DNA of 53,170 bases from assembly GCA_003209795.1 (NCBI GenBank), contig QCPB01000004.1:1-53170 (forward strand), in the 5' to 3' direction. Origin of the DNA: Prochlorococcus sp. AG-436-C05. Lineage in GTDB: Bacteria; Cyanobacteriota; Cyanobacteriia; PCC-6307; Cyanobiaceae. The notes beneath the pieces are model-generated. The model saw nothing but the letters and a program-made list of their open reading frames with translations. It made no database searches and was not told where the DNA came from. Positions within the stretch are counted from its first letter, which is position 1. Each line of letters starts with the position of its first letter. The translations under genes and the position numbers were made by a program. Below, piece after piece: positions 35,398-53,170 of this stretch.

Positions 35398-35448
35398 AAG
35401 TATTCAAAGATATTTAAGTTAAAAATTAAGAGAAATAAGTGAAAGAAA

Positions 35449-35470: not shown

Positions 35471-35501
35471 AAATTACGATTCCTTGAGATCCCAGTAATA
35501 G

Positions 35502-35546: not shown

Positions 35547-35614
35547 ATCAAGGGATTTCAGCGAATTTTAAAGCTTGAAACAAGGTTTATTCAAACTTTT
35601 TTGGGTATAAATTC

Positions 35615-35662
35615 ATTATCCATCAAACTACCTATTTAGGAAAGTGATGGGTGGTATGGGTT
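35615..35662. repeat. 48-bp island repeat (PRE1-like), copy 2
   Basis: It has the ATTATCCATC start, ACCTATTTAGGA dyad and GATGGGTGGTATGGG end, and lies 68 bp beyond the EVE fragment. Confidence 0.85.
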
Positions 35663-35722
35663 TAGCTTATTGGCTGTGTGTATATGTAAAACTCAATAAG
35701 AATTTATAATATTTTTTTTAAT

Positions 35723-35752
35723 TTATAGCGGTGCAAGTAGTAAGCGTTTCAT
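35723..35752 (-). pseudogene. Orphan signal-peptide start, nine codons
   Basis: The minus strand reads MKRLLLAPL and then stops. Its ATG overlaps the stop of the 146-aa gene (ATGA), exactly as a fifth gene of that operon would. It looks like the stub of a lost exported protein. Confidence 0.6.
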
Positions 35753-36189: not shown

Positions 36190-36474
36190 TTAATCATTCG
36201 ATCTTGTAATTCTTTCTTTTTTAGGTTTTCTTGTCCACAAGTAAATGGAACCTCCTATGAAACCTACCCATTTAACCCAAAACGCTAGTATAAGAAAGCC
36301 TATTTTATGAAAGACATTATTAAAGTAATCTAGATCCAAGAACCCCCAGATGATGTAACCGACAGTTCCCCAAGGAGCTATTAGAAAAGTTAATAATTCT
36401 GCCCATAAAATAAAAAATATAATATTTATAAAAATACGAGCATATTTATTTTTTGGTAGTTGTAAGCGTTTCAT
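36190..36474 (-). CDS. Small membrane protein, 94 aa
   Basis: Two hydrophobic segments (about 13-45 and 55-80) suggest two or three membrane passes, with a basic tail (RKPKKERITRSND). The first codons (MKRLQLP) copy the signal-peptide starts of its neighbours, but the sequence soon departs, so this looks like a swapped or re-used gene start. It is joined by TAAATG on both sides. Confidence 0.65.
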   Translation of the reverse strand: MKRLQLPKNKYARIFINIIFFILWAELLTFLIAPWGTVGYIIWGFLDLDYFNNVFHKIGFLILAFWVKWVGFIGGSIYLWTRKPKKERITRSND

Positions 36475-36855
36475 TTATTTACATAGAAACTTATATGTCC
36501 CTTCCAATTGTGGATTTTTAGATTCATCAAACCCAAACCCAAAAAAAGTCAATTTCCAATTACCATTTCTCTGACGCACAAATCGTACATAAGAATTATC
36601 AAAATCATGGACATAAATGCCTTTCTTACAGTTAATCTTTAACTCCTTTGTTCTTTTACCTGAACTCCATTCAGTCTTTATCCTATATTTTGCATATAAC
36701 CAATCACCTCTTCCTAATATTGAATCTGCATCTATCCACCTAATAAAATTTTGTCCGTCTTTATCAGAATAATTTGCCACCTCAATCCACGTTTCAGCAT
36801 TAACAGCAGTGGGTAAAGCGAGTGCAGCTAGTAGTGGGAGTAGTAAGCGTTTCAT
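36475..36855 (-). CDS. Exported protein, 126 aa, paralogue of the 146-aa gene
   Basis: I chose ATG 36855, where the MKRLLLPLLAALALP signal peptide begins; an ATG-like extension to 36888 runs into the preceding gene. The mature part has KINCKKGIYVHDFD and ends TYKFLCK, the same two-cysteine pattern as the 146-aa protein. The start overlaps the pentapeptide gene stop (ATGA), so translation is likely coupled. Confidence 0.7.
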   Translation of the reverse strand: MKRLLLPLLAALALPTAVNAETWIEVANYSDKDGQNFIRWIDADSILGRGDWLYAKYRIKTEWSSGKRTKELKINCKKGIYVHDFDNSYVRFVRQRNGNWKLTFFGFGFDESKNPQLEGTYKFLCK

Positions 36856-37250
36856 TTTTGTATTAGTGATTTGTTTTTGCAGACCCATCCGCTTGGTAAG
36901 AAACTAGGACAACCTCTGAGATTGGTTGCACTAATACCACTCAGGTTGGCACCCCTCAGGTCGGCAAGACTCAGGTCGGCAACAACCAGGTTGGCACCAC
37001 TCAGGTCGGCACGTCTCAGGTCGGCACGTCTCAGGTCGGCACGTCTCAGGTTGGCACCCCTCAGGTCGGCAAGTCTCAGGTTGGCACGAAATAGGTCGGC
37101 ATTAGTCAGTTTCCGCCCTCTCAGGTTTGTATGAAATAAGTTGCCACGTGCTCTTATCTCACTTTCTTTAGGTTCTAAATGATCAGCAAAAGATGCTGTT
37201 GGTGTAATAGATAAAGCAAGTATTCCTGCAATCGCTAATGCTTTTTTCAT
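36852..37250 (-). CDS. Exported pentapeptide-repeat protein, 132 aa
   Basis: After a signal peptide (KKALAIAGILALSITPTASFA) comes a run of about 12 A(D/N)Lxx repeats from residue 50 to 110, predicted to form a right-handed quadrilateral helix, then a conserved end ATNLRGCPSFLPSGWVC with two cysteines. At the DNA level the repeats are a 15-bp tandem array. A paralogue lies at 39442-40023. It is the first gene of a four-gene operon below a 16-bp box and hairpin. Confidence 0.85.
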   Translation of the reverse strand: MKKALAIAGILALSITPTASFADHLEPKESEIRARGNLFHTNLRGRKLTNADLFRANLRLADLRGANLRRADLRRADLRRADLSGANLVVADLSLADLRGANLSGISATNLRGCPSFLPSGWVCKNKSLIQK

Positions 37251-37285
37251 TAATATGAATATTACTTATACATTTATAGCAACTT

Positions 37286-37307
37286 AAAAAAAGGAGCTAA
37301 TTGCCCC
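37286..37307 (-). terminator. Terminator-like hairpin upstream of the pentapeptide operon
   Basis: On the minus strand GGGGC-AATTA-GCTCC is followed by seven T. It lies about 36 bases before the ATG of the pentapeptide gene and 7 bases below the 16-bp box. The loop and stem differ from the usual GAGGG hairpin, but place and polarity are the same. Confidence 0.7.
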
Positions 37308-37314
37308 TTATTTT

Positions 37315-37330
37315 AGATCGACTGTCAATC
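37315..37330 (-). promoter_or_regulatory. 16-bp island box GATTGACAGTCGATCT, copy 1
   Basis: This exact copy sits 64 bp upstream of the pentapeptide operon. The TTGACA inside it equals a sigma-70 -35 consensus, so a promoter role is plausible. A degenerate orphan signal-peptide start adjoins it at 37345-37370, as at 49911-49963. Confidence 0.65.
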
Positions 37331-37408
37331 GTAATTAATATATCGGTGCAAGGAGTAATAAACGTTTAATTATTGCCATTATTCTCAAATCTTTTCATTC
37401 ATTTCAAG

Positions 37409-37696
37409 TTAACAAATACTTTCTTCCGTACCTCCTTCTTCCAAATAATATTCAATTATTTCTTCTATTTCTTCTAATGAAGAACCAGACTCGGAAATTT
37501 CCTCACATTCTTCGTCAAAGTTTCCATCTTCATCTTCAATTTCTATTTGTTTTTCAAGACTTACACGATAATCGTCTTTATCTATTCCTGTTCTACAAAT
37601 TAATAAGCGACCTTCTTCAATATCAGTTTCGAAAATTGCATCAGGATCATTATCAAGAAGATTTTTTGCTTTGATACCAAGTTTTGCTAAATCCAT
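37409..37696 (-). CDS. Acidic hypothetical protein, 95 aa
   Basis: This highly acidic soluble protein (more than 25 Asp and Glu, for example IEDEDGNFDEECEEISESGSS) has no signal peptide; the first half (LAKLGIKAKNLLDNDPDAIF) looks like a small folded domain. No family recognised. It lies apart from the operon below, in a 440-bp interval, on the same strand. Confidence 0.6.
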   Translation of the reverse strand: MDLAKLGIKAKNLLDNDPDAIFETDIEEGRLLICRTGIDKDDYRVSLEKQIEIEDEDGNFDEECEEISESGSSLEEIEEIIEYYLEEGGTEESIC

Positions 37697-37880
37697 AAAA
37701 TTTGAAAAAATCTTTATAAATATAATCTAACTTTTTATTTTTTTAAAGACTAATAATTAACAAATAAAGGCACTCGAAAAATTCGCCAACAAATACATAT
37801 CAGATTGGCATGTGAAATTAAGCAATACCCCGCAAATATTTAGTCATGGCTTGTAGACATAGTGCCCTACTTGGGTTGTT

Positions 37881-37928
37881 AAGTATTTTGGGAGCACTAG
37901 GTCGCAGGTTCGAATCCTGTCGCCTTGA
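37881..37928 (+). pseudogene. tRNA-Pro(UGG) 3' fragment, copy 1
   Basis: The fragment starts in the anticodon arm (AGTAT-TTTGGGA-GCACT, anticodon TGG, one stem mismatch) and contains the variable loop, T arm GCAGG-TTCGAAT-CCTGT and acceptor strand CGCCTTG plus A. The 5' half is missing. A tandem GTTTGGATAAA pair follows at once. Confidence 0.8.
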
Positions 37929-37931
37929 AAA

Positions 37932-37953
37932 GTTTGGATAAAGTTTGGATAAA
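37932..37953. repeat. Tandem 11-bp direct repeat next to the tRNA-Pro fragment
   Basis: Two exact copies of GTTTGGATAAA begin three bases after the tRNA 3' end, the position expected for arm-type sites beside an attachment core. Confidence 0.8.
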
Positions 37954-37984
37954 AAATTACGATTCCTCGAGATATCAGGTATAG

Positions 37985-38029
37985 CTAGTCGGGGGTACTG
38001 TTCATTAGCCAATAGTTAAAGTCAGTCAT
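37985..38029 (-). pseudogene. EVE-gene 5' fragment, copy 2
   Basis: It reads MTDFNYWLMNSTPD and then TAG. It shares the TD-NY allele with copy 1 but has changed K-S-E to N-S-T, so it is decaying or from another donor. Confidence 0.8.
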
Positions 38030-38097
38030 ATCAAGAGATCTCAGCGAATTTTAAAGCTTGAAACAAGGTTTACTCAAACTTTTTTGGGTATAAATTC

Positions 38098-38145
38098 ATT
38101 ATCCATCAAAGTTTCTAATTAGGAAAGTGATGGGTGGTATGGGGT
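38098..38145. repeat. 48-bp island repeat (PRE1-like), copy 3
   Basis: The dyad reads TTCTAATTAGGAA here. It is followed by a 110-bp right flank that recurs after copy 7. Confidence 0.85.
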
Positions 38146-38279
38146 CAGCTTAGTGGCTGTGTTTCTATGTAAACCCCGAGAGAGATTTATAATTTTTTTT
38201 TCGGAATTATTTAGAGTTCTTTAATATCTAATTCAGAAATAAAGAATTCTATGACAAGTGCTTTGGGAGTACTAGGTCG
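38146..38279. repeat. Right flank of the 48-bp repeat plus tRNA-Pro anticodon-arm stub
   Basis: The stretch matches 46274-46410: GGCTGTGTTTCTATGTAAA, GAGAGATTTATAAT, GGAATTATTTAG, then AATAAAGAATTCTAT and a tRNA-Pro stub AGTGC-TTTGGGA-GTACT (38255-38279). In this copy homology to the tRNA stops after GGTCG; the T arm is lost. Confidence 0.7.
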
Positions 38280-38343
38280 AAGAAATGTTCTTGAAATAAA
38301 TTTAGTATTAAATAAACTATTTAAGTAGGTTTTTTCTTTTTAC

Positions 38344-39294
38344 ATGTCAAAATTTTTGCGTTTATTATATCCAATTTTTTTCGCCTACTTTTCTTCCTTC
38401 ATTATCTCTAATCCAATAAGAGCAAATGAAGTTACTTACAAATTAACTAATGGAAACATAGTAAGCGGAATTCTTATAGAAGAAAAAAGTAATGAAGAAA
38501 CTATAGTTATAAATAATCCAATTTTTGGAATTATTAGGATCGACAAAAGCAATATTTTATTTGATGATTCAGATTTTAACCATATTGAATACGCAGATGA
38601 ATCTTTACAGCTTGAAGATCAATCAAATAAACGTTGGAGTTCAAATATTAGTATTAATTCAGATTCAATAATGAATGATGGAGATATCTATAAACTTGTA
38701 CTTGAACATTCTTCAAATTATCAAGGAGATCTAAATGAGCTTGAAATCAGAAGCCGCTACGAAAAAAACTCTTGGAATGAAGCAGAATACTCAGATTCAA
38801 CTGAAACAGCCGCTTTAGAAATTTATAATAATTATTCACTTAATAAATTAACAAATTTATTTTTAGGTTTTCAATATGAGTATGATTCTAGACATAATGT
38901 TGGACAGGATGAATACTTATTTTCCTTTGGATTAGGATATAAACTTTTAAACAATCCTGATTTTAAATTAACAATTACGCCAGCCATTTCTTCTCATGTT
39001 TATGATGATGGATCAGAATGCATAATTCATAGTTGCGGAGACTTAAAGTATGCTTCCACAATTTTTTCTAATTTGGAATGGGATATAAATAATAATTTTA
39101 TCTTAGAAGCATTTAATACATATGCATTTGGCAATGGTATAACTATCAATAATTTAAGGGCTGAATTAAAATATTACCCGCTATCAATTAATAGTGATTT
39201 TTATACAAATATAAATTATTCAATTAATTACCATGAACTAACAGACCCAACACCTGATAAAGAACTTGGCCTTGGTATAGGCTTCTCTTTTTAG
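38344..39294 (+). CDS. Outer-membrane beta-barrel protein, DUF481-like
   Basis: This 316-residue protein has a signal peptide (1-27, ending IRA-NEV), a small beta domain of about 35 residues (TYKLTNGNIVSGILIEE), a linker, then alternating amphipathic strands from about residue 95 ending in GLGIGFSF with a terminal Phe, typical of outer-membrane barrels. It resembles DUF481/YdiY proteins. Role is unknown, perhaps a porin or anchor. It is the plus-strand cargo of its module. Confidence 0.75.
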   Translation: MSKFLRLLYPIFFAYFSSFIISNPIRANEVTYKLTNGNIVSGILIEEKSNEETIVINNPIFGIIRIDKSNILFDDSDFNHIEYADESLQLEDQSNKRWSSNISINSDSIMNDGDIYKLVLEHSSNYQGDLNELEIRSRYEKNSWNEAEYSDSTETAALEIYNNYSLNKLTNLFLGFQYEYDSRHNVGQDEYLFSFGLGYKLLNNPDFKLTITPAISSHVYDDGSECIIHSCGDLKYASTIFSNLEWDINNNFILEAFNTYAFGNGITINNLRAELKYYPLSINSDFYTNINYSINYHELTDPTPDKELGLGIGFSF

Positions 39295-39441
39295 ATAAAG
39301 GTTTTAATAAGTTAATTACTTAGAAAGATTATATTTTAAACTCAATTAGCAAAATAATTTGAGAGTTCTTTTAGTTGATCTAAATTTTAAAAAGAAAGTT
39401 CTAAATATCAGTAATCAGAAGCAAGGGTTTAGATGTATAAA

Positions 39442-40023
39442 TCAACGTTTTATTAGTGAGTCTTTTTCGCAGACCCATCCTATTGGTAAACGTTTAGGAC
39501 AACCTCTGAGATTGGTTGCAAAAACTCCACTCAGACTGGCATTAGTCAAGTCGGCACCAGTCAGGTTGGCACCACTCAGGTCGGCACCAGTCAGGTCGGC
39601 ACGATTCAGGTAGGCACGACTCAGGTTGGCACGATGCAGGTTGGCACGATTCAGGTCGGCACGATTCAGGTCGGCACCAGTCAGGTTGGCACTATTCAGT
39701 TTGGCACGATTCAGGTTGGCACGATTCAGGTCGGCACCATTCAGATTTGCACTAGTTAGGTTGGCACTAGTCAGGTTGGCACGATTCAGGTTGGCACTAG
39801 TCAGGATGACACGATCCAGGTTGGCTTTACTCAGGTCGGCACGACTCAGGTTGGCACGACTAAGGTCGCGTTTATTCAAAGTTTTATTTCTCAAGTTTGT
39901 ATGACTTAAGTTGCCACCTGGTTTCATATCATGATTTCTTGGTTCTAAATGATCAGCAAAAGATGCTGTTGGAGTAATTGATAGAGCCATTAATCCTGCA
40001 AGTGCTAATACTTCTTTCATTTT
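39442..40023 (-). CDS. Exported pentapeptide-repeat protein, 193 aa
   Basis: ATG 40023 (MKEVLALAGLMALSITPTASFA) is preferred: it begins the signal peptide and has AAAGGA seven bases ahead; the frame extends to 40053 but into the 16-bp box. About 24 pentapeptides (N-R-A-N-L type) precede the ending ATNLRGCPKRLPIGWVC, nearly as in the 132-aa paralogue at 36852. The longer repeat run suggests expansion of the 15-bp DNA unit by slippage. Confidence 0.87.
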   Translation of the reverse strand, partial: KMKEVLALAGLMALSITPTASFADHLEPRNHDMKPGGNLSHTNLRNKTLNKRDLSRANLSRADLSKANLDRVILTSANLNRANLTSANLTSANLNGADLNRANLNRAKLNSANLTGADLNRADLNRANLHRANLSRAYLNRADLTGADLSGANLTGADLTNASLSGVFATNLRGCPKRLPIGWVCEKDSLIKR

Positions 40024-40046
40024 GAAATCCTTTACTAATTTATTGT

Positions 40047-40062
40047 AGATCAACTGTCAATC
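40047..40062 (-). promoter_or_regulatory. 16-bp island box, copy 2 (one change)
   Basis: It reads GATTGACAGTTGATCT, 24 bp upstream of the chosen pentapeptide start. No hairpin follows; this leader instead has a good ribosome site. Nine bases to its right begins the GTGTGGACGG tandem repeat. Confidence 0.65.
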
Positions 40063-40070
40063 AAAAAAAA

Positions 40071-40092
40071 GTGTGGACGGGGTGTGGACGGA
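40071..40092. repeat. Tandem 11-bp direct repeat, GTGTGGACGG type
   Basis: GTGTGGACGGG is followed by GTGTGGACGGA. Two positions differ from the GTGTGGATAGG family at 34562 and 45600. Confidence 0.75.
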
Positions 40093-40125
40093 ATTTATAT
40101 GATTTTTAAGAACCCTTGCAATAAC

Positions 40126-40167
40126 TCAAGGCTCGCTTTTCATTAGCCAAAAATTTTCTTCATTCAT
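40126..40167 (-). pseudogene. EVE-gene 5' fragment, copy 3
   Basis: It reads MNEENFWLMKSEP and then TGA. It is closest to the intact gene (MTEENFWLMKSEP) over all 13 codons, after which homology ends. Confidence 0.87.
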
Positions 40168-40235
40168 ATCAAGGGATCTCAGCGAATTTTAAAGCTTGAA
40201 ACAAGGTTTACTCAAACTTTTTTGGGTATAAATTT

Positions 40236-40282
40236 ATTATCCATCAAAGTACCTATTTAGGAAAGTGATGGGTGTATGGGGT
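40236..40282. repeat. 48-bp island repeat (PRE1-like), copy 4
   Basis: This copy lacks one G near the end (GGGTGTATGGGGT) and is 47 bp. Its right flank is of the ATTCGACCTAGCGA type shared with copy 9. Confidence 0.85.
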
Positions 40283-40460
40283 ACATTCGACCTAGCGATT
40301 AAATATCAATTATTTGTATAGCTTTGATATACCTAGTGGTTTAATCTCTAAGTAATAGTTAATTTTTATTTTTTAAATTTATAGTCCTTGTTAATTTGTT
40401 TCTTTATTGCCTTTAAGATAGGTGTGATCATTGGTAGGCAATTACTTTTTTAAAATTGCT
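40283..40460. repeat. About 180-bp duplicated flank, left copy
   Basis: It matches 52815-52990 over almost all its length, for example TATCAATTATTTGTATAG, AGTCCTTGTTAA and TTCTTTATTGCCTTTAAGATAG. Both copies follow a 48-bp repeat and lead into a gene. Confidence 0.8.
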
Positions 40461-40475
40461 CAATTCTTCTGAAGG

Positions 40476-41312
40476 ATGACTTTTTTATCTTCAAATTGGT
40501 GGTTAACACCATCCTTAATAATGATTCTTTTAGGAATAATTTGTCCTGCAATTGGTACTGCTTTAATTTATAAAAAAAAATTATTGAATGCAAATTTAAT
40601 TGCATTTACGATTTTACCTGGAATAGTTATTTCTAAGGCACTTGGTCTACACACTTTGATTGGAGGTTTTATTGGTGGGGTGATTGGTGCTCTTCTTTCA
40701 GAATTACCTTCAATTAACAAAAATAAAAACCCTGCATCTGTAATCAATATATTTACATGCGGAATGATTGGATTTGGAGTATTAATCATTCCTTTACTTG
40801 GAATAAAAATTGATTTAGAGGCTGTTTTATTTGGCGATCTTCTAACGACAAGTTTAAGAGATCTTAAGATAATGTTGGCTCCTTCTTTTTTCCTTTTTAT
40901 ATTTTTTCTACTAACATTTTTCATTGGCAAATCAACTTATTCTGAATTTAATCAGAAATCTACTCCTGCTAATCTCATTAAGATATTTTTTTATACCCTG
41001 TTTTTAAATTTCATGACTATCATAGTCATAGCAAGCTCAGTCAGTGCTTTAGGAGTGGTTTGCGTTATCCCACTCTTGTCTGTTCCAAGCCTACTAGGTA
41101 TAGAAAAACGATCACCAAACTTACCAATTGCAATGGTTGTATCTTCAATATTTGGCCTTGCAATATCAACCACGGTTTTCCTTCTTTCCATTATTTTTAA
41201 TTTATCACCAGGTCCGCTAATAGGTGCTTTTTGCCTTCTTTTATTGGTTGCAAAGTTTTTTGTTAAAGATTTAATAAACTTTTTAAAATATATATATCGT
41301 TTATTTTCATAA
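40476..41312 (+). CDS. ABC-3 family metal transporter permease (ZnuB/MntB-like)
   Basis: This 278-residue polytopic protein has about eight membrane helices, with the family features LLGIICPAIGTALIYKKKLL, ADLLGDLLTT-like FGDLLTTS and ASSVSALGVVCVIPLLSVP. ABC-3 permeases import Zn2+, Mn2+ or Fe2+. No ATPase or binding protein is next to it, so partners must be elsewhere or it is a stray component. It is divergent in direction from most island cargo. Confidence 0.85.
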   Translation: MTFLSSNWWLTPSLIMILLGIICPAIGTALIYKKKLLNANLIAFTILPGIVISKALGLHTLIGGFIGGVIGALLSELPSINKNKNPASVINIFTCGMIGFGVLIIPLLGIKIDLEAVLFGDLLTTSLRDLKIMLAPSFFLFIFFLLTFFIGKSTYSEFNQKSTPANLIKIFFYTLFLNFMTIIVIASSVSALGVVCVIPLLSVPSLLGIEKRSPNLPIAMVVSSIFGLAISTTVFLLSIIFNLSPGPLIGAFCLLLLVAKFFVKDLINFLKYIYRLFS

Positions 41313-41350
41313 ACTTATTTGAATTAGTCTACTTTTGAGCAAGCTTTAAT

Positions 41351-41372
41351 TTAATTATTTTTAAATAATTAA
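41351..41372. terminator. AT-only inverted repeat between convergent genes
   Basis: TTAATTATTT-TT-AAATAATTAA is a perfect 10-bp dyad at the 3' end of the 105-aa gene, facing the permease gene. It may act as a weak bidirectional terminator. Confidence 0.4.
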
Positions 41373-41678
41373 TGCTATCCATTTAACTATATAAAAACAA
41401 AGAAGGGAGACTGAAAAAGTAGTCCCAATAAACGCATATTTTCGAACTCTAGTCTTTTGAAAAATCCCAGCTAAACCTAAAACTAAGGAACAAAAGCTTA
41501 AGCCTCCACAAAACACAATTAACACTCCGACAAAAAATGCAGCTATAAATGCCCCAGAGCTGTAATCATCCCCAAAAAAACCATAAATTAAAGCTAACTC
41601 TAAAAAAAAACCTACTGATGCAAGTATAGAAAGACCTAATGATAAGATTCCTAATTCTGATTCACCTTTTCGCTCCAT
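41361..41678 (-). CDS. Small membrane protein, 105 aa
   Basis: There are three membrane segments (about 9-30, 42-70 and 80-102) with an acidic short loop (GFFGDDYSSG). The pattern resembles DUF4190-like four-helix small membrane proteins, but I do not assign a family. Its ATG directly follows the T run of a GAGGG hairpin (see next entry), leaving no room for a normal leader with a ribosome site. Confidence 0.65.
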   Translation of the reverse strand: MERKGESELGILSLGLSILASVGFFLELALIYGFFGDDYSSGAFIAAFFVGVLIVFCGGLSFCSLVLGLAGIFQKTRVRKYAFIGTTFSVSLLCFYIVKWIALII

Positions 41679-41701
41679 AAAAAAAGAGGGTTTTATCCCT
41701 C
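41679..41701 (-). terminator. Hairpin abutting the ATG of the 105-aa gene
   Basis: The minus strand reads GAGGG-ATAAAA-CCCTC and T7, then ATGGAG. It has the form of an intrinsic terminator on the coding strand, yet ends at the start codon. It could insulate the gene from the cassette upstream or act as an attenuator. Confidence 0.75.
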
Positions 41702-41707
41702 CATGTT

Positions 41708-41723
41708 AGATCGACTGTCAATA
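41708..41723 (-). promoter_or_regulatory. 16-bp island box, copy 3
   Basis: It reads TATTGACAGTCGATCT (first base changed), six bases above the hairpin. If TTGACA is a -35 site, the -10 would fall in the hairpin (GGATAAAA), giving an almost leaderless transcript. Confidence 0.65.
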
Positions 41724-41751
41724 ATTATTAGAGGTGTAAATTGCCAAAAGT

Positions 41752-42294
41752 TCATTCAATAATATCCTCTAATTTGTATAGAGAAATAAATTCTATCTTG
41801 TTATTTTTCCATACAATTTGATCCTCTATTCTATCAACGATTGCAACAACACGATTCACAATGTAACCTGCATCACGCAAAACATTTACGGCTTTGATGG
41901 CACTACTACCTGTTGTAGTTACATCTTCTAATACTGTAACGATAGATCCTTTAGGTGGCTTATTACCTTCAATAATTTCTTTTGTTCCATATCCTTTCGG
42001 ATTCTTTCTTATGATCAAAGCATCAATATGTTTATTTGAGTAGTATGCTTTCTGTGCGATACCACAAACTAAAGGATCAGCACCTAGTGTAAGTCCACCA
42101 ACTGCTGCAGATTTATCTTCTATATGTTCAAACATCAAATGGGATATAAGTGCATTTCCCTCACAGGATAAACTAACAGGTTTACAGTTAATGTAATGCT
42201 CTGATTCTTTACCAGAAGATAAGGTAAATTTACCTTTCTTGTATGCTCTTTCTTTTATAAGATTTAGTAATGTCTTTCTATGAATTTCAGTCAA
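41752..42294 (-). CDS. pyrE: Orotate phosphoribosyltransferase
   Basis: This 180-residue enzyme of UMP synthesis transfers PRPP ribose phosphate to orotate. Signature stretches are FTLSSGKESEHYINCKPVSL and the PRPP loop IVTVLEDVTTTGSSAI. The start is TTG at 42294, forced by a stop just upstream; ATG starts inside would cut conserved sequence. Finding a pyrimidine synthesis gene inside a repeat-rich island is unusual; whether it is the only pyrE of the genome cannot be seen here. Confidence 0.88.
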   Translation of the reverse strand: MTEIHRKTLLNLIKERAYKKGKFTLSSGKESEHYINCKPVSLSCEGNALISHLMFEHIEDKSAAVGGLTLGADPLVCGIAQKAYYSNKHIDALIIRKNPKGYGTKEIIEGNKPPKGSIVTVLEDVTTTGSSAIKAVNVLRDAGYIVNRVVAIVDRIEDQIVWKNNKIEFISLYKLEDIIE

Positions 42295-42405
42295 AGAATT
42301 AATTGTTAAGTTGCTTTTGATAATTTACCAGTAATCTCAAAATAAATTTTCCTTCAGAGTCGACTTCTTAAAGTTTGTATTTCTTTTTTTCTCAATATAA
42401 ATAAT

Positions 42406-42450
42406 ATATAAAGAGGGTTTTATCCCTCTATGTTAGATCGACTGTCAATC
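42406..42450 (-). promoter_or_regulatory. 16-bp island box (copy 4) with GAGGG hairpin, upstream of pyrE
   Basis: The exact box is at 42435-42450 and the hairpin GAGGG-ATAAAA-CCCTC at 42413-42428, followed by only three T. It lies about 120 bases before the pyrE start, so unlike copies 3, 6 and 8 there is a leader of normal size with GAAGGA in it. Confidence 0.65.
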
Positions 42451-42462
42451 AAATTTTGATTA

Positions 42463-43650
42463 CTAATCCCAACGATTGTAATTACTGATCAACTTCAAAC
42501 TGTCAGTGATAAATGAATATTCAGGTATTTCAGTTGTTGTGAAAGGATTTGGACCTTTGTTGATCAAAATTACAGCACCCTTCTTACCGTCTTTGCTGAT
42601 GATAGAAAGTGAGAGATAACCAATATTCGATCCACTGTGAAAAATGTAGTCACCCTTTGACTCTTCTTGAGCATTTTTATTACCAATAAAAAATCCTAGG
42701 CTACGTGTCGGCGTTGAACTCGGAATGATTAAAGATTCAGCTAGTTTTTGATTAATCAGATTATCCTCTCCCCTTAATGCACTGGTGAAGGCTAAATTGA
42801 AGAGGGCGAGATCGGTAGCTGTTGTCCAGAGCAGACCTGTGGAGAAGATAGGATTGCGCATTGGGGCTTCTTTATGCACATTGCCATTACTATCGTAAGG
42901 AATCGCTATTGTTGTGGAGTCTTCCAGGAAGAATGTGTCGTCAAAAGTACTATTCACCATTTTTGCTGGTTGTATCACTAACTCGTTCATCAAATTTTTG
43001 AAAGGTTTGTCTCCGACATATTCAATGGCAGGCTGAAGCACCGAGTAACAGCCATTGCAGTAGGCATACTTTTCTCCTGGTACGTTATTTACAGTTACTG
43101 GGGGATTCGTTGCTGGCGGTTTACCATTTAAAAACTGTTTTACTGTAGGCAAAATTTCTTTGGGACCACAGCAACCATCTGGATAAGGTGAGGTAAGTGC
43201 TGCAGTATGATTCAGTAGCATTCTAAAAGTAACTGGCACTTTTGCTGTGAATTGATTCTTTGGGATTTTCCAGCTTGTAAGATAACGGTTCACTGGTTCA
43301 TCCAACGCGATTTCTTTATCTGCTAGTAGTTTTACTACGGCTAAAGATGTTAATGTTTTGGTGATTGAATTAGCAGTAAATAAAGTAGACGTTGTCACCT
43401 CGCGTTCAGTAATTGTATCGGCTATCCCGAAACCCTTTGCCCAGGAGATCTCCCCGTTATCAATTACTGCGATTGAGGCTCCTGGGATATTCATCTCTCG
43501 TCGTAGTGATTCGATTGAATTTTGAAGTCTGCGAGTTGAAAGGTTTTTTTGAAAGCTTGGCTTGCCAGTAATTGATTTAGCAATAATCAGTAAGAAAACC
43601 CCTGAGCTGATAACGGTTAATACTTTTACTACCAATTTATTAATGGTCAT
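42463..43650 (-). CDS. Serine hydrolase of the beta-lactamase class C / CubicO family
   Basis: This protein of about 395 residues is anchored or exported (hydrophobic segment at 6-25). The active-site triad of family S12 is present: SxxK in FTANSITKTLTSL, Tyr-x-Asn in YAYCNGCYSVL and HSG in IFHSGSNIGYL. Such proteins are esterases, D-aminopeptidases or penicillin-binding enzymes; true lactamase activity is not implied. ATG 43650 with AAAGGA six bases ahead is preferred to 43719, which lies inside the 16-bp box. Confidence 0.88.
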   Translation of the reverse strand: MTINKLVVKVLTVISSGVFLLIIAKSITGKPSFQKNLSTRRLQNSIESLRREMNIPGASIAVIDNGEISWAKGFGIADTITEREVTTSTLFTANSITKTLTSLAVVKLLADKEIALDEPVNRYLTSWKIPKNQFTAKVPVTFRMLLNHTAALTSPYPDGCCGPKEILPTVKQFLNGKPPATNPPVTVNNVPGEKYAYCNGCYSVLQPAIEYVGDKPFKNLMNELVIQPAKMVNSTFDDTFFLEDSTTIAIPYDSNGNVHKEAPMRNPIFSTGLLWTTATDLALFNLAFTSALRGEDNLINQKLAESLIIPSSTPTRSLGFFIGNKNAQEESKGDYIFHSGSNIGYLSLSIISKDGKKGAVILINKGPNPFTTTEIPEYSFITDSLKLISNYNRWD

Positions 43651-43705
43651 TTTGTCCTTTGTTATCTTTTTCAGTATATAATATTTGAATAGATTATCCT
43701 TTTTC

Positions 43706-43721
43706 AGATCGACTGCCAATC
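43706..43721 (-). promoter_or_regulatory. 16-bp island box, copy 5 (one change)
   Basis: It reads GATTGGCAGTCGATCT, 55 bp upstream of the hydrolase start. GATAAT lies 15 bases after TTGGCA and could be a -10 site. No hairpin follows. Confidence 0.65.
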
Positions 43722-43729
43722 AATAAAAA

Positions 43730-43751
43730 GTTTGGGTAAAGTTTGGGTAAA
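43730..43751. repeat. Tandem 11-bp direct repeat, GTTTGGGTAAA type
   Basis: Two exact tandem copies begin 8 bases after the box, followed by AAATTATGATTCCTTGAGATC as in other modules. Confidence 0.8.
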
Positions 43752-43782
43752 AAATTATGATTCCTTGAGATCGCAGTGATAG

Positions 43783-43833
43783 CTAGTCCGGCTCGCTTTT
43801 CATTAGCCAGTAGCTAGGTTCCTGTTGTACCAT
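43783..43833 (-). pseudogene. EVE-gene 5' fragment, copy 4
   Basis: It reads MVQQEPSYWLMKSEPD and then TAG. The EPSY allele is shared only with copy 7 at 52657. KSEPD matches the usual EVE-family sequence better than the boundary gene does, so it looks like a genuine foreign allele. Confidence 0.85.
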
Positions 43834-43895
43834 GGGATCTCGGCGAAAGTTTCAAGTTCGAATTAAGTTAGAATAACTCGTTCAGATGTAAATTC

Positions 43896-43943
43896 ATTAT
43901 CCATCAAAGTTTCTATTTAGGAAAGTAAAGGGTGGTATGGGGT
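43896..43943. repeat. 48-bp island repeat (PRE1-like), copy 5
   Basis: It carries TTCTATTTAGGAA and a variant AAAGTAAAGGGTGG. Its left flank (TCAGATGTAAATTC) pairs with that of copy 9, matching the shared EPSY allele. Confidence 0.85.
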
Positions 43944-43983
43944 CATCTACGTTGCAAGTACGTATATATTTGACCGCACGAAT

Positions 43984-44142
43984 TTATTTAGAAAAAGAAC
44001 AAAAATGATGAGCACTCTGATCGTCTACATCTGCAATTAAATCATCTGCTTTTAATTTTTCTGTAATCCGTTTATATTCAAAATGATTTACTAAATCAGC
44101 TAAATATTTTTCTAAAGAATTAATATTAATTTTTAGCTTCAT
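43984..44142 (-). CDS. Small hypothetical protein, 52 aa
   Basis: The frame from ATG 44142 reads MKLKININSLEKYLADLVNHFEY (first part) and ends HHFCSFSK. It is soluble, helical and with a His-His-Phe-Cys end. AAAGGA precedes the ATG by about five bases (AAAGGATATTAATG). No family recognised. The good ribosome site and clean codon use support it. Confidence 0.5.
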   Translation of the reverse strand: MKLKININSLEKYLADLVNHFEYKRITEKLKADDLIADVDDQSAHHFCSFSK

Positions 44143-44216
44143 TAATATCCTTTAGTTTATTTATAGCTATTAATTATTGTTTTAACTTTATCGGATTCCT
44201 AAATAAGCTTCGGATT

Positions 44217-45272
44217 CTAATATGGCAATGTAATTTGATTAATCGCTTGATTTTTATTTTTAAAAACTTTAAGTGGAACTAGATAGTTTTTATCTTTTTC
44301 CTCAAATATTCCATAGATATTATAAGAACCCAACCAACCTATTGTTCCGCCTGACTGATAACCAATTCTAACTAAATAAGCTTCCTTACATTTCGATAGT
44401 TGCTTAGCAAATCTATTGCATTGTGATAAAGCTATTTTTGTAAGTACTTCATAATGCGATTTATAGCGATTATGATTTTCAATTGCTTTTCTATTATTTT
44501 TTTGATAAACAATATTATCAACCACAACTAAATCGTGCATTCTCTCTTTTTTTTTTACAAACCCATTTTCTGAATCGGATTTAAAACATTCATCTAGATT
44601 ATTAGCTACCGAATAAACATTATTTTTAGATAATTTTGAGTTTATTGCGTAACCCAAAGGAATTGTCTTTCCGATATATTCCCCAGGACTATCTTGAAAT
44701 CCTCTCTTATTTTTAATATCAAATTTTTCTGTAAATAAGTCAACTTTTGGTGTTTTAAAATATCCAAATGTTGGAAAACAATTTGGTGGGATTATGCCTT
44801 TATCTGTTTTCCACCCAATAAGATTTTTATTATTAAATTGTTCTTGATTAACTCCATTGATTGATTTAATAGTCCATTTGCCATTCTCCATTCTGTCAAA
44901 CCAGATTAGACCATGAGAGATCATGAATCCTCTCCATCCCATAGAATCACAATCTATTTCAGTATTAATAACGTTATTAATCCATTCTTTCGGGAAGATT
45001 TCATCAAAACTTTTATTCTTTATGAATGCTCTTCTTGGACCATTAATAAGTTCATCAATTAGAACATGCTTATAAAGTCCTCGAATATTTTTTTTTGCTA
45101 TGAGATATTGAATTTTTCGTCCAAAATCATGAGCTTCCTGTCTGTCGTAATAATCATAATGTTGTTTCTTTTTTATTAAAGAACAGTCCTTTCTATTAGG
45201 TATTTGAATTCCTGATCTCGCAGGAAAAGGTACAGTAAAAATTATCAATAAAGCAAGTAGTAAGAGTTTCAT
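44217..45272 (-). CDS. Exported protein of unknown function, 351 aa
   Basis: The signal peptide MKLLLLALLIIFTVPFPARS is followed by a soluble mature part with several cysteines and no repeats (DCSLIKKKQHYDYYD; MGWRGFMISHGLIWFDR; LIGWKTDKGIIPPNCFPTF). The block around GWRGFMISHGLIWF is like enzyme-inhibitor or DUF-type periplasmic domains, but I cannot name one. Its ATG overlaps the stop of the 50-aa gene (ATGA). Confidence 0.7.
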   Translation of the reverse strand: MKLLLLALLIIFTVPFPARSGIQIPNRKDCSLIKKKQHYDYYDRQEAHDFGRKIQYLIAKKNIRGLYKHVLIDELINGPRRAFIKNKSFDEIFPKEWINNVINTEIDCDSMGWRGFMISHGLIWFDRMENGKWTIKSINGVNQEQFNNKNLIGWKTDKGIIPPNCFPTFGYFKTPKVDLFTEKFDIKNKRGFQDSPGEYIGKTIPLGYAINSKLSKNNVYSVANNLDECFKSDSENGFVKKKERMHDLVVVDNIVYQKNNRKAIENHNRYKSHYEVLTKIALSQCNRFAKQLSKCKEAYLVRIGYQSGGTIGWLGSYNIYGIFEEKDKNYLVPLKVFKNKNQAINQITLPY

Positions 45273-45421
45273 TTATTTACTACTTTCCCTCCATACTGTC
45301 TGACTATTTTATCTAACAAAATACGCATATCTTTATTTTTAAGTTTCTCTATTTGTTGCAAATTCTCTAGAAGATCACATATTTGATCTTGTGTATCTTC
45401 ATTTAATTCTGAAATTGCCAT
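45269..45421 (-). CDS. Small acidic helical protein, 50 aa
   Basis: The frame reads MAISELNEDTQDQICDLLEN (first 20) and ends RQYGGKVVNK. It is soluble, with a single long helix likely. It overlaps the exported 351-aa gene by ATGA, so the two are probably translated together. Its ATG directly follows a GAGG hairpin and the 16-bp box. Confidence 0.6.
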   Translation of the reverse strand: MAISELNEDTQDQICDLLENLQQIEKLKNKDMRILLDKIVRQYGGKVVNK

Positions 45422-45423
45422 TA

Positions 45424-45467
45424 AGAAAAGAGGTTTTTATCCCTCCATATTAGATCGACTGTCAATC
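45424..45467 (-). promoter_or_regulatory. 16-bp island box (copy 6) with hairpin abutting an ATG
   Basis: The exact box is at 45452-45467. The hairpin GAGGG-ATAAAAA-CCTC with TTTTCTT (45424-45445) is slightly decayed and ends two bases before the ATG of the 50-aa gene. Confidence 0.68.
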
Positions 45468-45474
45468 GCTAAAA

Positions 45475-45496
45475 GTGTGAATAAAGTGTGAATAGA
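45475..45496. repeat. Tandem 11-bp direct repeat, GTGTGAATAAA type
   Basis: GTGTGAATAAA then GTGTGAATAGA, seven bases from the box, followed by AAATTGCGAATCC, the same connecting sequence as the GTTTGG family. Confidence 0.75.
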
Positions 45497-45527
45497 AAAT
45501 TGCGAATCCTTGAAATCCAAGTAATAG

Positions 45528-45572
45528 CTAGACGGGTGTACTTTTCATTAGCCAAAAATTTTCTTCAGTCAT
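45528..45572 (-). pseudogene. EVE-gene 5' fragment, copy 5
   Basis: It reads MTEENFWLMKSTPV and then TAG. Both this allele and the upstream GTGTGGATAGG flank match the intact boundary gene. Confidence 0.85.
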
Positions 45573-45599
45573 ATCAAGGGATTAGGAGAATATTTCAAA

Positions 45600-45621
45600 G
45601 TGTGGATAGGGTGTGGATGGA
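45600..45621. repeat. Tandem 11-bp direct repeat, GTGTGGAT type, second copy
   Basis: It is identical to the pair at 34562-34583, including its neighbourhood up to CGACACCCGCTTCTTAAG. Confidence 0.75.
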
Positions 45622-45648
45622 ATAATTTCGACACCCGCTTCTTAAGTT

Positions 45649-45696
45649 ATTATCCATTAAAGTTCCTATTTAGGAAAGTGATGGGTGGTGTGGGGT
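45649..45696. repeat. 48-bp island repeat (PRE1-like), copy 6
   Basis: It has the perfect dyad TTCCTA-TT-TAGGAA and ends GGGTGGTGTGGGGT. Confidence 0.85.
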
Positions 45697-45829
45697 AATT
45701 AATTCTCTAAATAATATTGTTTTTATCACTAAAACACAAAATAAATAAATAAAGAAAAAAACCAAAAAAAATAAAGCCAAACTTTAAAACCTTTTTTATT
45801 TTGTATTTTTTTAAACAACTTACCTAAAG

Positions 45830-45988
45830 TTATTTATTAACTTTAAATAGATCTTGTATTACATAAATATCTATTGCATCTGGATACTTCTTCTGAAATA
45901 CTTTTATTGCATGATTCGGAGAAATAGCCAGAATATTTATCTTTATTCTGTAGTCATCAACTAAACCTGATATAAGATATTTTTTCAC
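45830..45988 (-). CDS. Small hypothetical protein, 52 aa, GTG start
   Basis: From GTG 45988 the frame reads MKKYLISGLVDDYRIKINIL (first 20) and ends DLFKVNK. The alternating pattern resembles a small beta-alpha-beta fold. No ATG is available. It is the only gene of a module of about 0.4 kb. I do not recognise it; the clean coding pattern is the support. Confidence 0.5.
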   Translation of the reverse strand: MKKYLISGLVDDYRIKINILAISPNHAIKVFQKKYPDAIDIYVIQDLFKVNK

Positions 45989-46039
45989 AATCAATTAAGA
46001 CATTTAGTCAATTTTATATCCGATTTCAATTAATAAAAA

Positions 46040-46072
46040 GTTTGGGTAAAGTTTGGGTAAAGTTTGGGTAAA
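46040..46072. repeat. Triple tandem 11-bp direct repeat, GTTTGGGTAAA
   Basis: Three exact copies occur in a row, the largest array of this family, 32 bp from an EVE fragment. Confidence 0.85.
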
Positions 46073-46103
46073 AAATTACGATTCCTCGAGAACCTAGTAA
46101 TAG

Positions 46104-46148
46104 CTAGTCGGAGGTGCTTTTCATTAGTCAGAAATTTTCTTCAGTCAT
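46104..46148 (-). pseudogene. EVE-gene 5' fragment, copy 6, with internal stop
   Basis: It reads MTEENF and then TGA in place of TGG, then LMKSTSD and TAG. The early nonsense change shows these short frames are not all kept for translation. Confidence 0.82.
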
Positions 46149-46225
46149 ATCAAGGGATTTGGGAGAAATTGCAAATCGTTAACGAATCGTGAATGTAATA
46201 TCATACTATTTGCTTTTATATATTT

Positions 46226-46273
46226 ATTATCCTGCAAAGTTCCTAATTAGGAAAGTGATGGGTGGTATGGGGT
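46226..46273. repeat. 48-bp island repeat (PRE1-like), copy 7
   Basis: This copy has the perfect palindrome TTCCTAATTAGGAA at 46240-46253. The neighbouring CCATC is replaced by CCTGC. Confidence 0.85.
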
Positions 46274-46384
46274 CATCTACGTTGCTGTGTTTCTATGTAA
46301 AACCCGAGAGAGATTTATAATATTTTTTCGGAATTATTTAGGTTCTTTAATATCGAATTCCCTAATAAATAAAGAATTCTATCT

Positions 46385-46433
46385 CAAGTATTTTGGGAAC
46401 ACTAGGTCGCAGGTTTGAATCCTGTCGCCCTGA
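46385..46433 (+). pseudogene. tRNA-Pro(UGG) 3' fragment, copy 3
   Basis: It comprises anticodon arm AGTAT-TTTGGGA-ACACT, T arm GCAGG-TTTGAAT-CCTGT, acceptor strand CGCCCTG and A. The 5' half is missing. The flank before it (46274-46384) matches 38146-38254, so the two junctions are related. Confidence 0.8.
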
Positions 46434-46457
46434 CTCTAAAAAACCAATTCACACTAT

Positions 46458-46480
46458 AGAGTTTCCCAACTCTCTTTTTT
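46458..46480 (+). terminator. Hairpin terminator after the tRNA-Pro fragment
   Basis: AGAGTT-TCCC-AACTCT is followed by CTTTTTT. It is probably the original terminator of the tRNA-Pro gene carried along with the fragment. Confidence 0.75.
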
Positions 46481-46507
46481 ATTTCTTTTACTTGTTGGCT
46501 CATAGCG

Positions 46508-46541
46508 GCCAACAAATCAGCCAACAAATAGCCAACAAATT
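46508..46541. repeat. Triple tandem direct repeat, GCCAACAAAT type
   Basis: Units start at 46508, 46520 and 46531 (12 then 11 bp). A second array of the same family lies at 46996, on the other side of the Ycf66-like gene. Confidence 0.8.
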
Positions 46542-46599
46542 TGATTAATTGTGAAAATATATGTAAATCTCTATGATTTAATCATGTTTCTAAAAACGA

Positions 46600-46965
46600 A
46601 TGGTAAACGCATCAATTAATTTGGCTTCAATATGTGGGATTCTTCTTTTCCTTTGGGGTTTACTTGCTACACCTGCTGGAATTTCTCAAGTGATATTTTA
46701 TTTAATATCTATTAATAGAAAAGAAGGCAGGTCAATAGTTTTTGTTTTCAAAATAGCTTATAGAGTTTTTCTAACTCTTGGGAGATTCTTGGGCTCACTT
46801 TTTGTTGGAAATCTTCTTTTTGCTCAGGGTTGGAGATTGGATCCAATTCTCCAAGCTGTTATGGTCGTTTTGATATTAATGAATTTTATGGAGTCTGCTA
46901 ATAGTGTTATAAATGACTTCCTTAAATGGTACAGGTGGCAGAGGAACAGAAAAACAATACATTAA
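46600..46965 (+). CDS. Ycf66-like membrane protein, 121 aa
   Basis: Three membrane segments are seen. The block LLFAQGWRLDPILQAVMVVLI with MESAN is characteristic of the Ycf66 family of cyanobacteria and plastids, whose function is unknown. It is the sole gene between two arrays of GCCAAC repeats, a unit of about 0.5 kb. The N-terminal half is less conserved, so a divergent paralogue is likely. Confidence 0.75.
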   Translation: MVNASINLASICGILLFLWGLLATPAGISQVIFYLISINRKEGRSIVFVFKIAYRVFLTLGRFLGSLFVGNLLFAQGWRLDPILQAVMVVLILMNFMESANSVINDFLKWYRWQRNRKTIH

Positions 46966-46995
46966 ATGAAGTTTAAAATAATCATTTAATTATTA

Positions 46996-47028
46996 GCCAA
47001 CCAATCGCCAACCAATCGCCAACAAATA
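46996..47028. repeat. Triple tandem 11-bp direct repeat, GCCAACCAATC type
   Basis: GCCAACCAATC occurs twice and GCCAACAAATA once, in exact 11-bp register. Orientation is the same as at 46508. Confidence 0.8.
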
Positions 47029-47070
47029 GACTTTTAATGTTTACTAAATCATTTTCAAACTAAATTTAAA

Positions 47071-47109
47071 TAAAGTTCCTATTTAGGAAAGTGATGGGTG
47101 GTATGGGGT
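47071..47109. repeat. Truncated 48-bp island repeat (PRE1-like), copy 8
   Basis: It begins at AAAGTTCCTATTTAGG; the ATTATCCATC end is replaced by AAATTTAAAT. No EVE fragment lies to its left; the GCCAAC array takes that place. The right flank CATCTACGTTGCTGTG equals that of copy 7. Confidence 0.82.
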
Positions 47110-47352
47110 CATCTACGTTGCTGTGTTTCTATGTAAACCCCTAGAGAGATTTTTTTTTGGAATTTATAGCGTTGCAAGTAGTAAGTTCTCTTTTCTAAGG
47201 TCTTTTGATTACCCACATTGAATTGTCTAGAAAGAACCTCAACTAACAAGCAAGGTAAGTAATAGCAGGGATTTATGCATCCTGTATATTCGGGTATTGA
47301 CAACAAGAATAAGACTTCGCTATAAATATAGTACAAGTGTATTACTCATCAA

Positions 47353-51447: not shown

Positions 51448-51492
51448 AACAAGAAACCCCTCCAGAAATTCCAACTACCAGAGAGGTTATTA

Positions 51493-51569
51493 AATTGACT
51501 CGTACTATATAAAGTCAATCTATGTCTTGGAGTAAACGAAGAGTGTACTCATTGAGGTTTGGCCTCAAT
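51493..51569. repeat. Two inverted repeats
   Basis: ATTGACT and AGTCAAT form a 7-bp stem around 12 bases (51493-51518). ATTGAGG-TTTGG-CCTCAAT is a perfect stem-loop (51551-51569). The stretch 51448-51770 has no convincing gene otherwise. Confidence 0.45.
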
Positions 51570-53011: not shown

Positions 53012-53170
53012 CTAATTAGCTTTGATAAAAGTTCCTAAGCCAGATCGTTTATCATTTAGCCATTCTCCCACATAATAATCCCCATTTGACCAAGTAAAAG
53101 TTCCTAAGCCAGATCGTTTATCATTTAGCCATTCTCCCACATAATAATCCCCATTTGACCAAGTCAAAGT
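53012..53170 (-). CDS. MORN-repeat protein, C-terminal end only
   Basis: The frame enters from the right window edge and ends with TAG at 53012-53014. It holds more than two copies of a 23-residue MORN unit (WSNGDYYVGEWLNDKRSGLG, then TFT). At the DNA level the unit is a perfect 69-bp tandem repeat (53027-53095 and 53096-53164). MORN repeats mediate membrane-lipid or protein contacts in eukaryotes and occur in bacterial surface and effector proteins; the role here is unknown. The start lies outside. Confidence 0.85.
   Translation of the reverse strand, partial: TLTWSNGDYYVGEWLNDKRSGLGTFTWSNGDYYVGEWLNDKRSGLGTFIKAN

Follow-up and report, generated by a model that had tools for sequence, protein, structure and literature searches.

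Introduction

In 2006, Coleman et al. reportedly described PRE1, a 48-bp repeat with the 3′ end of tRNA-Pro, in the genomic islands of Prochlorococcus MED4, and tycheposons are said to have been described by Hackl et al. in Cell in 2023. We analyzed a 53,170-nucleotide stretch of DNA (the window; contig QCPB01000004.1) from Prochlorococcus sp. AG-436-C05, whose assembly comprises 1.136 Mb in 40 contigs and is 71.65% complete. In the window, a small gene lies between two arrays of a short GCCAAC repeat, downstream of a 48-nt copy of the tRNA-Pro 3′ end that is probably PRE1. Whereas PRE1 is reportedly a repeat only, the 48-nt copy here appears to be an attachment core with arms and arrays on both sides. 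We consider it likely that the window feature is an end-truncated, non-autonomous single-gene cassette at the 3′ part of tRNA-Pro that would be moved by an integrase matched to its arrays.

Several described systems come close. The sections of PMC10872708 on tycheposons give them as elements of 4–200 kb that lie at one of seven tRNAs and have a recombinase. Cis-mobilizable elements (CIMEs) are integrase-less elements with attachment (att) ends, and Dehalococcoides has 15 ssrA islands without an integration module, in a serine recombinase system (relevant parts of PMC5704250 and PMC3146451). In the mycobacteriophages CrimD and Pixie versus Tweety, paired 11-bp arm-type sites flank a core at a tRNA or tmRNA 3′ end, the integrase N-terminal domain reads the arm sites and a terminator lies in between; the same account, in its sections on integration, terms the case of related integrases with one core and different arm sites ill-defined (PMC3203893). 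A family of picocyanobacterial tyrosine integrases acts at tRNA-Phe/Cys, according to the portion of PMC10187409 that introduces it.

Like tycheposons as outlined in those sections, the elements described here occur in Prochlorococcus, target a tRNA, form cargo islands and have a tyrosine recombinase in larger sister elements; unlike them, the matched cassettes measure 0.2–4.3 kb, lack an integrase and carry matched pairs of iterons (the repeat units of the arrays). The window cassette has the tRNA border, but neither an internal recombinase nor a length of 4–200 kb. With CIMEs and accretion islands, and with the additive islands of PMC10872708, as far as these sources cover them, our elements share attL/attR without integrase and a tandem arrangement at one tRNA/tmRNA site; they differ in that single-gene units keep the matching arm arrays of one integrase type among many that share a core. 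Both attachment ends, as kept in CIMEs, are retained in relatives such as L079, L135, L137 and L056, whereas the window keeps only the left. The window cassette would work like a CIME of a tycheposon-like element. The relatives resemble phage attP, as set out for the mycobacteriophages, in having paired sites of about 11 bp on both sides of the core and a tyrosine recombinase, although the window itself has one core; they differ in comprising dozens of integrated elements in one genus, integrases that are near-identical except at the N terminus and integrase-less passengers. The tRNA-Phe/Cys integrases are likewise marine picocyanobacterial and use tRNA genes, but their tRNA targets differ.

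Results

A single-gene cassette that keeps one attachment end

Within the window, GCCAACNAAT doublets occur only at 46508–46540 and 46996–47027, with three copies apiece, both on the plus strand, against a chance expectation of 0.00. An initial annotation of this DNA had proposed a minimal cassette with its cargo between two same-orientation arrays, and both the arrays and the open reading frame (ORF) between them are present as proposed. The parts of the locus are as follows.

46386–46433, plus strand: 48-nt tRNA-Pro 3′ copy, the putative left attachment core, found by sequence comparison
46387–46403, plus strand: predicted crossover core AGTAT-TTTGGGA-ACACT, the anticodon-arm inverted repeat, slightly decayed in the window
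46434–46507, plus strand: left arm, 74 nt
46458–46473, plus strand: terminator-like hairpin and T-run within the left arm, found by folding
46492–46499: inverted iteron copy TTGTTGGC within the left arm, found in the sequence
46508–46540, plus strand: left array, three copies of GCCAACAAAT at 11–12 bp spacing, putative arm-type integrase sites
46600–46965, plus strand: cargo gene (ORF), 121 amino acids, weakly Ycf66-like
46996–47027, plus strand: right array, two copies of GCCAACCAATC and one of GCCAACAAAT, putative arm-type sites
47028–47071, plus strand: remnant 3′ of the right array, where neither the right arm nor the tRNA-Pro stub usual at this place was found
47072–47164, plus strand: piece of an attachment repeat of a second family, the EVE-gene type, standing where the right end is expected

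The GCCAAC arrays are thus placed at the predicted inner borders of two attachment arms, those of a cassette without an integrase that is inserted at the tRNA-Pro 3′ end. The inner length is 455 bp, and the 121-amino-acid gene is the sole ORF of at least 70 amino acids. ARAGORN found no intact tRNA in the window, and an Rfam search returned nothing at the cassette locus. The tRNA-Pro stub expected on the left is the 48-nt copy. A terminator had also been placed there; the terminator scan called none in the window copy, but the hairpin and T-run fold at −4.2 kcal/mol (z −3.8) and the homologous hairpin of relative L137 passes the scan. On the right, a repeat had been read as a truncated copy of the 48-mer. 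A repeat does exist at 47072–47164, but it belongs to a family with the 5′ start of an EVE-domain gene. Since this is a second family rather than the tRNA-Pro 48-mer, the cassette's own right end is missing, and the module, which lacks the 101–105-nt right arm and the right tRNA stub, is not complete as had been suggested. Nor is it the smallest, as a 198-nt empty element and an element with a 437-nt inner part exist.

The assignment of the cargo as Ycf66-like falls below threshold: the match to Pfam Ycf66_N has E = 0.021 and 15.4 bits (cut-off, 22.3) and covers residues 66–96 only, and the protein has no NCBIfam match at E ≤ 0.01. The gene is not fixed in the core genome; relatives occur in 13 of 266 genus genomes at E ≤ 1e-9, two of which have GCCAAC arrays within 1.5 kb of it, and one scan of IMG/VR found none. 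We considered the function of Ycf66 as the key to the locus and set it aside because the family match is weak and the gene sporadic. It is the complete attachment end, consisting of tRNA-Pro core, arm and array, and not the arrays alone, that would form the functional unit. The initial interpretation, partly supported, was right in spirit and wrong in detail.

In the mechanism that we propose, a tyrosine recombinase would bind the GCCAAC arrays, as arm-type sites, through its N-terminal part, with the tRNA-Pro anticodon arm, AGTGC-TTTGGGA-GCACT, serving as the core for crossover. Larger sister elements encode this integrase, the start of which lies at their right array. Where the two ends of a cassette carry arrays that match it, the integrase would bind both and excise the cassette as a circle, which would then be inserted at a tRNA-Pro copy, leaving tandem stubs behind.

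Attachment ends in relatives have fixed geometry

The GCCAACNAAT doublet occurs in 15 of 151 genomes of a genus sample, and a reversed-pattern control in none. An exact-doublet scan of GTDB genomes returned 34 stretches, 30 of them titled Prochlorococcus or Synechococcaceae. Read in the tRNA sense, the order is constant: a tRNA-Pro gene or stub, 72–76 nt, an array, cargo, an array, 101–105 nt and a tRNA-Pro stub. Where a tRNA-Pro copy was in reach, the left gap was 72–76 nt for 21 of 21 GCCAAC arrays and the right gap 101–105 nt for 20 of 20; six further GCCAAC arrays had no such copy in reach, including two at contig ends and the right array of the window. Right arms vary in sequence and keep their distance. 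Full tRNA-Pro genes stand at the left border in L057, L067, L077, L086 and L087.

On the right side, identity to tRNA-Pro starts at AGTGC-TTTGGGA-GCACT, the anticodon arm, which by its sequence would have the shape of a tyrosine recombinase core; we placed the predicted crossover at this point, where identity starts in relatives. The same cargo gene, with arrays, is found elsewhere: the copy in AG-422-M23 (G116) is 78% identical in DNA to the window from array to array, encodes an open 116 amino acids and has both GCCAAC arrays, a right arm and a perfect stub, with its left end at a contig edge. The window copy alone is incomplete; together, the two show one whole cassette.

Two of the four non-cyanobacterial doublet matches lie 58–70 nt downstream of a tRNA gene (tRNA-Pro in HTCC2143 and tRNA-Thr in an Eremiobacterium), and ARAGORN found no tRNA adjoining the other two. 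Viral contigs gave two matches, L091 and L090. In L091 the array adjoins what by eye is a tRNA-like 3′ fragment (ARAGORN found no whole tRNA). It falls inside an integrase gene, at its 3′ end, and the encoded protein matches Pfam Phage_integrase at 2.6e-28 and Arm-DNA-bind_4 at 5.9e-12. The match in L090 was rejected, as its array lies within a 1684-amino-acid ORF.

Larger elements encode an integrase at the right array

In larger elements, an ORF that starts at the right array and reads inward encodes a divergent tyrosine recombinase. The L127 integrase matches PF00589 at E = 5.6e-5, below the cut-off, and a PHROG integrase at 3.3e-8, and the L122 integrase fragment matches PF00589 above the cut-off (4.7e-7). 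Since three 415-amino-acid proteins of the integrase type matched no Pfam family, we used PHROGs and an alignment, in which RPIE, FRHYYALR, GHS and RNYPY are present; we take these to be tyrosine recombinase motifs. No relative with a solved structure was found at E ≤ 10. A 412-amino-acid ORF of L137, at one time a candidate integrase, is GDSL-like (below cut-off) and was excluded from the alignment (A2).

The integrase profile matches 65 of 266 genus genomes at E ≤ 1e-30. An array lies between −60 and +75 nt of the start codon in 40 of 71 integrases (39 by filter and one by hand), some of the 71 being cut copies of others, or in 31 after removal of near-duplicates. For the L083 integrase (594–1895), the iteron was assigned by hand. 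In these 40, the array is 60–150 nt from the tRNA-Pro stub where a stub is present. An integrase and matching arrays occur together in five elements of 7.2–18.7 kb: within single loci in L127 (two elements, 7.8 and 9.1 kb from one stub to the other) and L309 (7.2 kb), and across two loci in L123/L124 (12.8 kb) and L130/L131 (18.7 kb). Among 13 integrase-bearing intervals in single loci, both arrays were detected in five, three of which match at 10 or more of 11 positions.

Many iteron types occupy the same positions

We dropped an account restricted to GCCAAC once other iterons appeared at the same positions. To avoid selecting for GCCAAC, we located tRNA-Pro 3′ copies in 21 near-complete genomes and took the 40 regions around them, nine of which had been picked for Ycf66-like genes. 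Among 220 distinct tRNA-Pro copies, 26 of them full genes and with array-selected loci included, 60 arrays with a period of 10–13 begin 70–79 nt downstream, compared to 0.6 per 220 random places. Upstream of the 194 stubs, 53 arrays end at 100–109 nt and 27 at 140–149 nt; the random-place control covers the downstream scan. Across 275 copies, 25 iteron patterns form tight position clusters, near 26, 45, 51 and 71–76 on the left and near 74, 102–106, 116 and 140–145 on the right, with at least one side assigned for 218 copies. As the patterns were chosen by hand and one array may count under several similar families, we put the number of iteron types at these positions, GCCAAC included, at roughly 20. 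Across 30 loci, 152 family arrays lie near same-strand tRNA-Pro copies and 17 elsewhere.

The arrays at the two ends of an interval tend to match. In loci not chosen for arrays, left and right agree at 9 or more of 11 positions in 24 of 28 intervals (1000 shuffles: mean 4.2, maximum 10), and in all loci in 34 of 41 (mean 6.4, maximum 17); the test covers intervals with two detectable arrays and omits 107 of 148. In 32 of 115 cases, the left array is immediately preceded by a copy of the same element's iteron in inverted orientation (shuffle mean 6.7, maximum 13).

Integrase N termini and iterons change together among close relatives

Some integrases are nearly identical except at the N terminus, with a break in identity near residue 50–60. 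L062 and L242 are 97% identical from residue 61 to the end and 28% over residues 7–45, and their iterons are GCCAAC and GCCGAC, respectively. L242 and L243 both have GCCGAC (one spacer base apart) and are 85% identical over residues 7–45 and 69% from residue 61 to the end. L135 differs in iteron from both L241 (97% identity from residue 61, compared to 35% over 7–45) and L083 (95%, compared to 51%); the types named beside GCCAAC and GCCGAC, for L135- and L241-type integrases, are TTCCGTCAAAA and TTGCGGACAAA. Among pairs at least 65% identical from residue 61 to the end, the 22 with the same iteron (11/11) have N-terminal identities of 0.54–1.0 (median 0.92), whereas the remaining 30 have 0.26–0.85 (median 0.38), the 0.85 being L242/L243. 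As the integrase N terminus and the right array adjoin, a single crossover would carry both. The left array is kilobases away, so the left-array match in cassettes is an independent point.

Empty and single-gene cassettes lack an integrase

Cargo-free units, consisting of left arm, single array and right arm, occur in L065 and L061 (GCCAAC) and in L213 (the sister array GCCGAC), so that the arrays are also found joined without a gene. The L213 element measures 198 nt from stub to stub, and the right stub of L061 is shortened. Single-gene GCCAAC cassettes carry a 95-amino-acid gene (G041), a 132-amino-acid gene (L079, L137), a 446-amino-acid gene (L056, L082, L064) or a trypsin-like protease (L063, L075/L139). 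The 34 array-matched intervals span 198–4343 nt (median 1943). None contains an integrase ORF of at least 250 amino acids; given this size limit we sought remnants by tblastn with 40 integrases (E ≤ 1e-3) and found none in these intervals or in 15 GCCAAC cassettes including that of the window.

The same cargo occurs beside unrelated neighbors. For five cargo groups, with cassette borders drawn by hand, ten flank comparisons were possible and four were too short; eight of the ten showed no similarity and two showed short pieces only (72 nt; 110 and 49 nt). Among the 12 other loci of the Ycf66-like gene, a tRNA-Pro copy lies within 1.5 kb in seven, and GCCAAC arrays accompany the gene in a single one of the 12 (G116).

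A 371-amino-acid cargo family (c371) is found behind several array types, in L066 (537–1649 and 4382–5461), L197, L296, L303 and others. It occurs twice in one contig (L066), and cargo may shift between address codes.

A second cassette and a second attachment family in the window

The window holds a second, damaged cassette of the GCCAAC type and an array of another type.

37390–37928, plus strand: second GCCAAC-type cassette, left end lost, 91% nucleotide identity to the single-gene cassette of G041
37409–37696, minus strand: 95-amino-acid gene of this cassette
37785–37794: its sole remaining iteron
37834–37864: its right arm
37881–37928: its tRNA-Pro stub
46037–46072, plus strand: three copies of AAAGTTTGGGT in an arm-like array that belongs to the second type of element, at EVE sites; a 5′ fragment of an EVE gene follows after 44 nt

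The right third of the window (34073–34534 and 35446–47164) repeatedly contains 5′-terminal fragments of a gene with an EVE domain (Pfam PF01878). Arrays of 11-bp repeats of the AAAGTTTGGRT type stand 43–45 nt before such fragments in ten cases, four in the window, one each in L122, L299 and L301, and three in L302. This looks like a family of serial insertions at the start of a protein gene with the same arm design. Two hybrid units (37929–38282 and 46037–46433) start with an EVE-type array and end in a tRNA-Pro stub. A hairpin-like stretch followed by TTAGATCGACTGTCAATC occurs in seven copies, including window 45411–45470; this copy and two related ones (40043, 43702) stand directly before 11-bp arrays, and the unit is perhaps the right border of EVE-type elements.

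Elsewhere in the window, the 15-bp arrays at 36936–37101 and 39553–39859 are coding, with pentapeptide-like repeats (by eye) in ORFs 36852–37250 and 39442–40053, both on the minus strand. Rfam matched Yfr13 at 51469–51566 (minus) and ATPC RNA at 11661–11751 (plus). Where the contig ends, 69 bp are duplicated exactly in tandem (53026–53163), possibly an assembly effect.

Discussion

A number of observations weigh against a cassette moved by an array-matched integrase. Detection is patchy: across 34 loci, mostly not chosen for arrays (L135–L137 were), a left array was detectable at 59 of 130 copies and a right array at 53 of 113 stubs, and one or both arrays went undetected in eight of the 13 integrase-bearing intervals. 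The filter for an array at the start codon was failed by 31 of 71 integrases, including a group of 462–470 amino acids at tRNA-Pro (L250–L264) in which no array was detected near the start, 206 nt from the stub; these are exceptions to the rule or have degenerate arrays. Left and right arrays mismatch in four of the 28 intervals above. They agree at only 8 of 11 positions in L225 (2922–14537) and 7 of 11 in L083 (1969–7693; left ATGTCATATTT, right TTGCCGTCAAA), which may be fused neighbors, cases of a lost stub or counter-examples. The window genome has one integrase by profile (E ≤ 1e-30), and since its iteron is different, a helper for the window cassette was not found in this 72%-complete genome.

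The co-variation also has weak points. Over all 465 integrase pairs, which are not independent of one another, iteron similarity correlates equally with the N terminus (rho 0.45) and with the C-terminal part (0.44). GCCAAC and GCCGAC are one base apart, a small change beside an N terminus of 28% identity. Among the swapped integrases, only that of the L062 element (L127) has a confirmed left array; for L135 the left array was undetected, for L083 it mismatched, and the stub upstream of L241 has another array. The N-terminal model, a helix, three strands and a helix, has low confidence (predicted local distance difference test, pLDDT, 63), and a fold search with it gave no convincing match, the arm-binding domain 3jtz appearing at Z 2.0 and rank 48, within noise. 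The full-length model is poor (pLDDT 54).

We weighed these points together with other explanations. The small cassettes might be dead remnants of larger elements, such as decayed tycheposons or CIMEs, with arrays kept by recent descent. The damage in the window, where one cassette has lost its right end and the other its left, fits this, as do the many tRNA-Pro copies without a detectable array on one or both sides. Yet 34 matched intervals retain both arrays, the tblastn search for traces of an integrase in them and in the 15 GCCAAC cassettes came back empty, the same cargo sits beside unrelated neighbors and the G116 copy is an intact 116-amino-acid ORF, so we regard decay as a doubtful account of the whole. 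Alternatively, the arrays could be sites of homologous or site-specific cargo exchange, as direct 21-bp repeats allow deletion or swapping between arms. This idea, to which we give about the same modest credence, accommodates the cargo-free units of L213, L065 and L061 and the fact that the c371 cargo, present twice in L066, follows arrays of more than one type. It leaves unexplained the fixed distances to the tRNA core, the position at integrase starts and the inverted third copy, and it can hold in addition to movement by an integrase.

The right array either reaches into the start codon of the integrase or adjoins it, which would also suit operators or promoters of cargo or integrase rather than recombination sites. 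We think this improbable, as arrays flank the cargo on both sides whichever strand it occupies, keep a fixed distance to the tRNA core and match across kilobases; autoregulation through arm binding would suit operators and arm-type sites alike. Least probable by far are replication iterons of plasmid-like forms. Such iterons have a spacing similar to that of these 11-bp tandem repeats, but single-gene cassettes fit one ORF, none of which was recognized as a replication initiator among the few that were family-searched, and the iteron sequence follows the integrase N terminus among close relatives.

Returning to movement by an array-matched integrase, element families would differ in iteron sequence and use few fixed distances; the array would therefore act as an address that determines which integrase moves which cassette and which ends pair. 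We are somewhat inclined to extend this to the tRNA-Pro islands as a whole, as a swappable code of about 20 iterons and matching integrase N termini in which tagged cargo would move in trans and both parts of the code would be exchanged jointly. The iterons would tell apart tandem elements that have one common crossover core, tiny cassettes with one gene or none would be carried in trans under the tag of a particular integrase, and an element would change address when its N terminus and iterons are exchanged together. We found no description of these arrays in the literature searched, a search that left the primary tycheposon paper outside; for passengers this small, arm codes that match appear to be new.

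The arrangement provides a sequence rule for locating cassette ends in islands, and near-identical integrases with different N termini and DNA sites form a natural set that makes arm-site recognition directly testable. If correct, the proposed matching would explain how many mobile cassettes can stand head to tail behind one tRNA with near-identical cores and yet be cut out one at a time, and how, in an abundant marine phototroph, a single gene could travel without an integrase of its own.
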